Assembly (NCBI GenBank): GCA_002917775.1
Contig: KZ627152.1
Coordinates: forward strand, 340,158-404,157
Source: Glaciozyma antarctica PI12
Lineage: Eukaryota > Basidiomycota > Microbotryomycetes > Kriegeriales > Camptobasidiaceae
Length of the DNA stretch: 64,000 nt
Direction: 5' to 3'
Shown: positions 1 through 4,428 of the stretch, one piece after another
How positions within the stretch are numbered: position 1 is the stretch's first letter
How the letters are laid out: each line of letters begins with the position of its first letter
Position numbers and translations under genes: made by a program
Notes under the pieces: generated by a model
Told to the model about the DNA's origin: nothing
The model's input: the letters and a program-made list of their open reading frames with translations, nothing else
The model's database searches: none

Positions 1-3000
1 GATTCTCCTCGAGTGCTGCCATCACTACGCCAAAGTCCGAAGCGTTTCGATCCAGTACCTCAACGACCTTGTCACTAGCTTCCCCTCCCTCCTTTGCGAA
101 GCGACAGTCGTCAACGTCCTCCTCGAGATTCTCACCGTCCTTCGTCGAGCGTGCCAGGCCGAATTCGTCGACGAGGTGAGTCGCCGGTGGCTTCTCCGAG
201 CGAGTCTGCTGACCGCCTTGATTCCAGTACACGCCAGTCTACACCTTCCGCTCCGCTCGCGGTGGCTTCTCCCTCGTTCTTCCGGACGACTATGTCGTCC
301 GCAACGCTATCCTCTCGGAGATGCACCAGTACGCCAAAGCGTGGCTTAAGGCTGGAATTACGCGGGCGCCGTTTGAGATGCAGGGCCTGCTGCAGGTACG
401 CTCCTTCGCAATCGAGGCTCGCTCGAGTTGGCTAATTTTTGCTTTTGGCAGGACTACATCGATGGCTCGCACTCGGTTCGAGGCGAGCACAATCTCGGGC
501 CCTTGTCGGACGACGAGATGGGCAAGAGCGTCGCTATCGACATGGTGAGGTCGCTGTCAAGTAACGACAAAGAAGGTGCGAGCTCTGCCTTTCGCACTTT
601 CGCTTGCTCAGCTAACGCCTGCCACATTAGCTTCTCTCCCACGCTGGGGAGGCTGGAAGTCGGACAACTCGGCTCACTTTGCGAGGTCCTTCGGGAACCG
701 CAGCTACTATGGCGGAGACGCTTCGCATCTCGGTACGCGCTCCGCTCGAAGCTGGGCTTGTATCGTGGCTGACGGTCCTCCGGCAGACGATGCTGGTCGA
801 CAAGGTCTTCTCGCCGAATTGCAGCAGCTCGCGGAGGAAATTCGTTCGCACAAGCTCCACTCGAAGCTGGCCGACCTTCGGCCTCTCTTCTACCGCTGCG
901 CTGCGCATTTGGTCAACGCTAAAGAGGTGAGCGGAACTGGCTCGTCTGTGCGAGTTTAGATCTGACCACCTTGACTTGCCTAGCCCAACGTCGAGATTCT
1001 CCACCACATGGTCGCACTGCCTGTTCGAGTCTTCAGCGACGGCGCAGTGACTCTCGCGCAGGAGGTCTGGTCGTGGGTCGCAGACGCTCGGCCTGATCTT
1101 GAGGCGAAGTTGATGGTCGAGGTTGCCGAGGCATGGACACGCACCGTCCAGCACAAGCAGGGACTCTTCTCGGCCGCATTCAAGTACGTGCGATCTCATT
1201 TCCAGTAGAACAAGTCTGACCAGCTAAGCTTCTACAGTCGTCGCAACCCTCTCGACCAGGAGACGCAGTTCACTCCCACCGACAAGGACGCGATGACGAA
1301 GGAGTACACGCTCGCGACACGCGCTCTCCACCCGCACGCCGTCCTGCTCTCCTTCTTGTCGAGTCGCTTCCAGGCTTTCCGATACCGCGACCGAGACCTC
1401 GTCCTCAATTGCATGCGACTCCTGATGCGGTCAAGCATGGCTTCCGCGACGTGGAGGTGAGAGATTCGCACAATCTGGACATCGCGTGTGCTGACGCACC
1501 TCTTCTTTCCAGCACGCACCCTCTGGCACGGGAGCTTCGTATGCGACTGCTATCTTTCGGCTTCTGCGTTCTGCAAGGAAGCAAGGCGGAAACTGCTGTC
1601 GAGTTCAACTTCCGCACGACGCTCTACGACGCAGCTCTTTCGTGGTTTGCCATTCGTGCCGGGTGCGTTTAGCCTGGCTAGCTCGAGCGAACTCGATTTA
1701 CTGACGCCGACGCGGTTTCGCAGATGGTCGTTCGGCACGAACCGCATTCAGCTCAAGGCGGACCTCCAAGCAGTGGAAGAGCTTCAAACCGCGATCAAGT
1801 CGGATTCGCCCTCGTACAACTTCGTCTCCAGCTCGTCGGCCTCTGGCAAAGTCGCTGCTCTCCCAGGTCGGTCTGAGCCTACCTCATGCAGTTGCGCGTT
1901 CCTAACGATCACTGTCCAGGTCGTCTCTCGCTTTCGTCAGCTATCGTGCAGCAGGACAACCGTCAGCACCTGCTCGTCACCTTGCTCGACAGCGAGGTCG
2001 ATCGCCTGCGTCTCTGGATCAACCCGCTCTCGGATCCGGCTCGTGGACCTGTCGCAGCCACTCGCTCGACAGTTTCTGAGGTTTGTTCTGCCTCGCTTCC
2101 CTACGAACGGGACGCTGACGTCCGTGCCAGGCTACTTGGCGTCAGATGGCTCGCATCGCCTGGACTCTCAACCCGACGGTCGCCGTTCACCTCCCAGAGC
2201 GCTTCAAGGTCCCAGCCTTGACCAACGAAGTCACGCGCCTCGTTCGGAACGACCCTGGACAGGTGGAAGGAGTTGCTGAAGCCTTGGGCTTCTTCGTTGG
2301 CGACACGATCACGGCAGACATTCGGCATCAGCTTCGCGTGCGTGTCCTGCGTCCCTCGTTTGCCGTGGAGTCTACCCATCTGACGGTTCTTCGCGCAGCA
2401 CCTTCTCTACTGGGCTCCCGTCCCCGTCATCTCGGCTCTGCGATTCCTCTTCCCCAAATTCGGTGGCGACCCAGTTCTCCTTCAGTACGCGCTCCGCGTT
2501 CTCGAGCACCATCCCGTCGAGGTCACGTTCTTCTACATCCCTCAAGTCGTTCAAGCTCTGCGCACCGATGCTTTGGGTACGTGCAGCTCTTTCTACTCGC
2601 GATCTCGGCCCATACTGACCGACGTCTAGGCTACGCCGAACGCTTCATCTTCGAGACGTCCAAGATCTCGCAGCTCTTCTGCCACCAAATCATCTGGAAC
2701 ATGAAGGCGAACGCGTACCGTGGCGATGCTGGTGAGGAGGTGAGTCGTTTTTCTTTGGCTTGGTTTGCGCCTGACTGACTCTCGCTTCCCCCGCAGGCTG
2801 ATCCGATGAAGCCAACGCTGGACCGCATGGTGGAGATGATCGTCGAATCCCTCTCCGGCGAGGCGAAGGACTTCTTCCAGCGAGAATTCGCGTTCTTTGA
2901 CGAAGTCACCTCCATCTCCGCAAAGCTCAAGCCCTTCATCAAGGCGAGCAAGCTCGAGAAGAAGGTGAGCTCCTTTCCGTACGCCCGACCATCCTGGGTT

Positions 3001-4428
3001 CGCCTGACGCTTTCTCTCGTGCGCGCAGGCAAAGATCGACGAGGAGATGGCGAAGATCAAGGTCGACCCTGGCGTCTACCTCCCGAGTAACCCGGACGGC
3101 GTCGTCGTCGACATTGACCGCACCTCCGGACGCCCTCTGCAAAGCCATGCGAAGGTGCGATTTTCTCTCGGCGGCTTGTGAGCGAACGTTTCTGATGCGC
3201 TTGCTCGCCAGGCACCCTTCATGGCGACTTTCAAGGTTCGACGCGAGAAGAAGACCGATCACGCCGCTCAGGACGCCCTCATCGAGCTGGAGGAGAGTTC
3301 CGAGGACGCCGCGAGCGTCACTGGCTTCGATACCTGGCAGTCTGCCATCTTCAAGGTTGGCGACGACTGTCGCCAGGACGTGCTTGCGCTCCAGATTATC
3401 GCGATGCACAAGAACATCTTTACGAGCTTGGGACTCGACCTTCTCGTCACGCCGTACCGAGTCACGGCCACTGGACCAGGCGTGCGTATCTTTGCGCTGT
3501 TCGACGCTTTCGCTCAGCTAACTTTGTGCCTTCTCCTGCAGTGCGGTGTCATCGACGTGATTCCGAACGCGACGTCGCGAGACGAGATGGGTCGCGCCAA
3601 GGTCAACGACCTTCGCAGCTTCTTCATCCTCAAGTACGGCAGCCCCGACGGAGTCCACTTCCAAAAGGCGCGCACCAACTTCATTCAGTCGATGGCGGCC
3701 TACTCGTGCTACATCTACATCGTCCAAATCAAGGATCGTCACAACGGCAACATCATGATCGACGGCTTTGGCTGCATCACGCACATCGGTGCGTTCTGTT
3801 TTGCTCCTCCTGTCTGAACCACCCGCTGACCACCTCTTCCTGTGGCAGATTTCGGATTCCTCTTCGACATAGATGAGTCCTTTCTCCGAGCTACGGCCTC
3901 TACGCGCGTACTTACCTTTGACTCTCGTTGTTCTGCTGCTTACGTCCTGGCGTACGTTCCTTTCCGCGTTTCGCTGCGTCGTCTCCGCCTGGCTGACGAG
4001 CTCTTTCGCAGGGGGTCAAATTCGAGCCGAGCTCGTTCAAGCTCAGCCACGAGATGGTCGTCTTGATGGGAGGCCGCCACAGCGTCGGGTTCCGGCAGTT
4101 CTCTGAACTTACCATCAAGGCCTTCCTCGCCTGCAGGCCGTACGGTCAAGCTGTCGTCGATACTTCCAGCCTCATGATGGCCGCCGAATTCCCTTCGTTC
4201 AAGGGAGAGCCGACGATGACGAGGCTGGCGGAGCGCTTCAGGCTCGATCTTTCGGAGGCGGACGCGGCGGAGTACATGAAGGGCGTTATCGACAACGCGT
4301 GCGAGAACCCGAGGAGTATCGTCTACGACGAGTTTCAGAGGTTGACGAACGGTGAGTCTCGGCTCGAGGGAGGGGAGCGAGAGACGCAGCTAACGTCGAA
4401 ACTCTCAGGAATCCCGTATGTGCGATGA
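1..4428 (+). CDS. STT4: Phosphatidylinositol 4-kinase STT4 (PI4K alpha type), 5' end outside the window
   Basis: Type III PI 4-kinase that makes PI4P at the plasma membrane. The first exon fragment is open from base 2 (ILLECCHHYAKVRSVSIQYL), so the start lies upstream. Many exons follow. The C-terminal half carries the PIK helical domain and the lipid kinase domain. Visible motifs are the ATP-binding region with FKVGDDCRQDVLALQII (about 3350-3400), the catalytic loop KDRHNGNIMID (about 3732-3765) and DFGFLFDI (from 3848). Then comes KFEPSSFKLSHEMVVLMGG (from 4015) and the family-typical C-terminal ending NGIPYVR before TGA 4426-4428. Between DFG and KFEP the frame closes only if an AT-AC intron at 3873-3943 and an 8-nt exon are accepted (listed separately). 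Identity is firm; the exact exon map is hand-made. It converges on the next gene with about 120 bp between stops. Confidence 0.95.
3873..3943 (+). other. Putative AT-AC (U2-like) intron in STT4, followed by an 8-nt microexon
   Basis: The exon ending GAC ATA G at 3872 is followed by ATGAGTCC and the stretch ends TGCTTAC at 3943. That is GTGAGT...AG with G to A at the first base and G to C at the last. Removing 3873-3943 (71 nt), joining the 8 nt GTCCTGGC (3944-3951) and removing the canonical intron 3952-4011 restores a continuous frame. The result reads DFGFLFDIGPGGVKFEP, which matches the DFG...SPGG segment of PI4K alpha kinases. No GT-AG choice does this. Confidence 0.6.

Follow-up and report, generated by a model that had tools for sequence, protein, structure and literature searches.

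Kinase gene and proposed exons of the activation loop

The window analysed here, a stretch of 64,000 nucleotides, lies on contig C7 of a 19.98 Mb genome (18 contigs). Positions 1–4428 of its plus strand belong to the 3' portion of a phosphatidylinositol 4-kinase gene of the STT4/PI4KA type, as seen from an ab initio gene model, a match to PI4KA in the PDB and the Pfam domain PF00454. The kinase translated from the AT-AC model described below has human PI4KA as its best PDB match (271.1 bits), with PI4KB next (166.2 bits), and contains PF00454 with 126 bits, in agreement with the kinase family named by the first-pass annotation. With 4.3 kb of upstream flank added, this model has 38 predicted introns and encodes a protein of 2112 aa; 36 of the introns (35 GT-AG and one GC-AG) were taken unaltered from our gene finder. 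In the upstream flank, the gene finder predicts a GC-AG intron at −2542 to −2487 relative to the window start. The gene finder was trained on 264 kb of the genome, its last round using 588 introns with a median length of 55 nt, and its trained intron signals are GTRMGT for the donor, GCTRAC for the branch and GCAG for the acceptor.

Around the activation loop, an exon at 3849–3872 codes DFGFLFDI plus the first base of the next codon and ends in ATAG. It would be followed by a 71-nt AT-AC intron at 3873–3943 (ATGAGT...GCTTAC), proposed on the basis of its letters, its donor context and the homology of the loop; by an 8-nt exon at 3944–3951 (GTCCTGGC), which would code the middle of G-P-G-G; by a canonical 60-nt intron at 3952–4011 (GTACGT...CGCAG, branch GGCTGAC); and by an exon at 4012–4351 coding (G)GVKFEPSSFKLSHEMV... 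of the C-terminal lobe (all on the plus strand). The letters at 3871–3878 are AGATGAGT, giving the donor context AG/ATGAGT. The letters, coordinates and intron lengths of the first-pass annotation match the sequence. Joining the exons of the AT-AC model results in DFGFLFDIGPGGVKFEPSSFKLSHEMV without a stop, with DFGFLFDIGPGGVKFEPSSFKL as the activation loop, and reproduces the spliced peptide DFGFLFDIGPGGVKFEP that had been put forward. The terminal letters are as read, and we infer that AT and AC serve as the splice boundaries; the mRNA would then code DIGPGGVKFEP, a normal loop.

The proposed exon of 8 nt compares with a median of 110 nt for the internal exons predicted by the gene finder. 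Out of 581 predicted internal exons, 19 are at most 12 nt long (three of the 19 have length 0 and are artefacts), and tiny exons may not be unusual in this genome.

Reading frame and loop homology

It had been claimed that no GT-AG solution keeps the frame at this place. We found otherwise: when GT, GC and AT donors were combined with AG acceptors, six single GT-AG introns stay in frame without a stop (3908–4011, 3927–4000, 3930–4000, 3944–4011, 3956–4011 and 3968–4011). In these options GPG is replaced by 12 to 32 residues, which makes the loop 9 to 29 residues longer than in the AT-AC model, and none of the six gives P-G-G or the loop length of the family. The donor at 3952 is in frame only after removal of some upstream stretch. 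A pair of GT-AG introns flanking a small exon gives no open solution, because no AG starts between 3890 and 3998 and a GT-AG intron thus cannot end ahead of the 8-nt exon. Because six in-frame GT-AG options exist, the argument from the frame has to be exchanged for an argument from the homology of the loop.

Human PI4KA has the loop FESSPGG-NLGWEP, with PGG at the equivalent place. A PI4K-beta/PIK1-type paralog is found in the same genome (PIK1 being a name by resemblance; its kinase domain gives 261 bits to human PI4KB and 152 to PI4KA), and its loop DFGFLLSNSPGSLGFEAAPFKL aligns without gaps with DFGFLFDIGPGGVKFEPSSFKL, the P and G of PG being invariant. A loop score based on three reference loops puts the AT-AC structure first of 45 (GT/GC-AG and AT-AC structures only) with 196, the next having 168, and PGG is present in the AT-AC structure alone among 12 listed of the 45. 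With any dinucleotides allowed at the intron ends, 40605 structures are in frame, of which two reach 197 and another two equal the 196 of the AT-AC structure; we know of no precedent for the intron ends of these four. We also made dinucleotide shuffles of 3879–3989, keeping the ATGAGT donor in place and making no demand on splice-signal quality: 10 of 2000 reach 196 with some allowed structure, each of them through a different AT donor, at 3869, and PGGVKFEP occurs in the best structure of 14 of the 2000.

Comparison with PI4KA by phmmer, covering the AT-AC model and three of the nine alternatives, gives 271.1 bits for the AT-AC model, 265.3 for an intron from AT 3873 to AG 4000, 255.0 for 3908–4011 and 247.8 for 3956–4011. 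Pfam scores fail to separate the models (126.0 bits for AT-AC versus 126.0, 125.3, 124.9, 123.5 and 121.2, with six of ten models scanned and a spread of 0 to 4.8). The PGG in the DFGF...PGG loop of the STT4/PI4KA kinase itself depends on the AT-AC model. As judged from these alignments, it is homology, not the splice signals, that decides for the AT-AC reading.

Splice signals and competing structures

Relative to 631 predicted introns, the AT-AC intron at 3873–3943 has its donor context at the 89th percentile, its acceptor at the 22nd and its branch point at the 13th, a strong donor thus standing beside weak signals for branching and for the 3' end. Its AT donor scores 4.82, and 11 of 12750 AT dinucleotides (both strands, 264 kb) reach at least 4.8. 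For the intron at 3952–4011 the corresponding percentiles are the 37th (donor), 97th (acceptor) and 52nd (branch point), and its donor scores 2.66 versus −0.53 for the donor at 3956. Two weak candidate branch sites may serve the AT-AC intron, both on the plus strand: TACTTAC at 3910–3916, the best by the model trained on this genome, whose A lies 29 nt upstream of the end of the intron, and CTTTGAC at 3916–3922, with its A 22 nt before the end (versus a genome median of 16 nt). The first AC downstream of CTTTGAC forms the proposed 3' end, with no intervening AG.

When the gene finder was offered AT-AC introns, 3873–3943 gained 3.6 nats at zero penalty and was left unused at penalties of 4, 8.5 and 10. 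At least 15 other dinucleotide pairs gain more than AT-AC on the kinase gene, and five of the top 15 share the donor at 3873. Splice signals and frame alone thus do not force AT-AC, and they favour the donor at 3873 more than the TTAC end; if the rarity of AT-AC is taken into account, a GT-AG model comes out ahead on splice signals alone. No excess of AT-AC was seen in the 264 kb relative to 12 decoy pairs: the gene finder used AT-AC 11 times at penalty 3 (decoys 4 to 15) and 24 times at penalty 0 (decoys 14 to 67).

Considering loop and signals together, we regard it as very likely, from the sequence, that the AT-AC intron at 3873–3943 is removed by the ordinary U2 spliceosome and is followed by the 8-nt exon and an ordinary intron. 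The core of the first-pass annotation, an AT-AC intron plus an 8-nt exon, therefore stands as the best-supported structure (196 among 45 structures; 271.1 bits versus 265.3, 255.0 and 247.8); its frame argument is false, and signals alone favour GT-AG. Use of an ordinary GT-AG intron, either 3956–4011 or 3908–4011 (28 or 12 residues replacing GPG in the activation loop), appears improbable. Both keep the frame intact without a stop, and 3956–4011 is what the gene finder chooses when AT-AC is withheld or carries a penalty of at least 4, but both lack PGG, with loop scores of 64 (3956–4011) and 128 (3908–4011) versus 196, and fall below the AT-AC model on PI4KA by 23.3 and 16.1 bits, respectively; the donor at 3956 is at the 6th percentile and the one at 3908 scores −2.66. 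A rough sum of approximate scores against 3956–4011 (3.6 nats, plus about 16 nats for the 23.3 bits, minus about 8.6 because the class makes up 0.019% of introns) comes to about +11.

Alternatively, the donor at 3873 could be right and the 3' end another one, either in a single AT-AG intron at 3873–4000 or with a different non-canonical end. The AT-AG intron keeps the frame, loses 5.8 bits on PI4KA and makes the tiny exon unnecessary, and in Ganoderma the accessible part of one report counts 21 AT-AG versus 13 AT-AC introns (PMC11590231). It would however give DIALSQGVKFEP, in which PGG is gone and the loop score falls to 145, and its AG at 3999–4000 lies three bases beyond the branch site CTGAC. 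The ends TC, TG, GT, TT and CT combined with donor 3873 gain more in the gene finder, yet they are absent from the top 25 loop scores, and we give a different 3' end little chance of being right. That a normal GTGAGT...AG intron was altered by an error in the sequence or by damage particular to this strain, as could be imagined with each end one base off the consensus, is hardly credible: this needs two substitutions on exactly the two terminal bases, creating a known compensating pair, while the remainder of the predicted kinase gene is open.

Type of spliceosome and known cases

The 5' site AG/ATGAGT is one base off AG/GTGAGT and agrees with the U12 site RTATCCTT at 2 of 8 positions, which fits the U2 type proposed at the outset. 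Removal by the minor spliceosome as a U12-type AT-AC intron is extremely unlikely in view of this 5' site, despite the AT-AC ends and a best U12-like branch match ACCTTTGAC (6 of 9 positions of TTCCTTRAC). Minor snRNA genes are reported in one fungus, Cutaneotrichosporon oleaginosum, in the accessible text of PMC7072748, and the accessible parts of two other sources report no minor introns in Basidiomycota (PMC10639083, PMC2846911). At E<=1, the genome showed no match to U11, U12 or U4atac; for U6atac there were two sub-threshold matches, one of them on a U6 gene, and such matches also occur in 8 of 14 control genomes. As for the controls, U6 and U4 were found, U1 was found twice below the cut-off and U2 was missed, so that this search does not demonstrate a lack of minor snRNAs. 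A PDCD7-type minor spliceosome protein matched neither in this genome nor in the controls, making that search uninformative. The fungus probably lacks a minor spliceosome. Both U1 matches have the normal 5' end ATACTTACCTG, and hence no altered U1 pairing with A+1 is seen.

In the proposed mechanism, ATGAGT would be read as a variant of GTGAGT with one base changed, and A at the first base would be acceptable since C, not G, stands at the last position, the terminal bases presumably still being in contact at the second step. In yeast suppressor work, a first-base A is rescued by a last-base C. The most likely origin would be a GTGAGT...AG intron that acquired two compensating changes. We infer the AT-AC splicing path, its branch point and this origin from the letters of the locus.

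The lengths of the exon (8) and of the AT-AC intron (71) are not divisible by three. The predicted distance of truncation from the DFG Asp is 39 residues with the exon skipped, 52 with the AT-AC intron kept and 25 with the next intron kept, and on this model a complete kinase requires accurate splicing. Since exon skipping or retention of either intron would remove the C-terminal lobe, the AT-AC intron and 8-nt exon could be thought of as a control point of this lipid kinase of the STT4 type, at which slow or regulated removal of the AT-AC intron would set the amount of in-frame mRNA; such a role seems improbable to us. In Trichoderma virens, the Xlr2 gene likewise has a microexon of consequence, and according to the portion of the paper available its inclusion is regulated, whereas inclusion of the 8-nt exon would be required for the full kinase domain (PMC11121469).

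The intron had been described as rare in fungi, and this fits two surveys, cited here from their accessible parts: AT-AC makes up 0.019% of annotated fungal introns in one (PMC7072748), and in the other 13 AT-AC introns (0.014%) were counted in Ganoderma lingzhi, one of which was verified by Sanger-sequencing PCR products (PMC11590231). RNA-seq of fungal pathogens, in the part of the article available, gives 0.09–5.19% (PMC6176087), and the rarity of AT-AC introns thus depends on the survey. Like our case, the Ganoderma lingzhi intron is an AT-AC intron in a basidiomycete, but it lies in another gene, no tiny exon is mentioned in the accessible text, and the kinase intron is a prediction from sequence (PMC11590231). 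For Phakopsora pachyrhizi, Table 2 of PMC2846911 has two AT-AC introns that are backed by ESTs and fall outside the U12 class, again in a basidiomycete. Animals also have U2-type AT-AC introns, and those of C. elegans are processed by U2 machinery according to the available part of PMC3033335; common to both are the AT-AC ends, the presumed lack of minor snRNAs and probably the use of U2 machinery, but C. elegans is an animal and its case is backed by EST alignments (PMC3033335).

Among the papers listed for Rhodotorula or Rhodosporidium, nothing concerned this kinase gene, and no ortholog of the kinase locus was found in scans of viral and genome contig collections. The kinase AT-AC intron with its 8-nt exon, as predicted, is very probably a rare instance of a kind already known. 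The picture of splicing is unchanged by it, as basidiomycete AT-AC introns are already in print. If the structure is true, automatic annotation of this gene can err at the catalytic loop, as the gene finder built here did, and the locus offers a natural experiment on how the first and last intron bases pair in a fungus probably without a minor spliceosome.

There were also some side observations. The two U1-like genes with the normal 5' end (C2:611437–611612 and C2:634732–634907) lie about 23 kb apart in opposite orientation, and both are under the Rfam cut-off. Neither U2 snRNA nor the aromatic lyase family PF00221 had a match anywhere in the genome, meaning that the search is blind to them here or that the assembly is without them. 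Two copies of the U6 gene were seen. The copy at 1501–1621 (+) of locus L012 (C4:334443–334563) has an uninterrupted ACACATGCAGTCAGA. In the copy at about 1432–1579 (−) of locus L011 (contig C13, near 264049), the match stops after ...GACAC, which is followed by AT, then by a GTGAGT...CTACTAG stretch of about 69 nt, and then by GCAGTCAGA. From its letters, this interruption looks like an mRNA-type intron within U6; U6 introns occur in basidiomycete yeasts.
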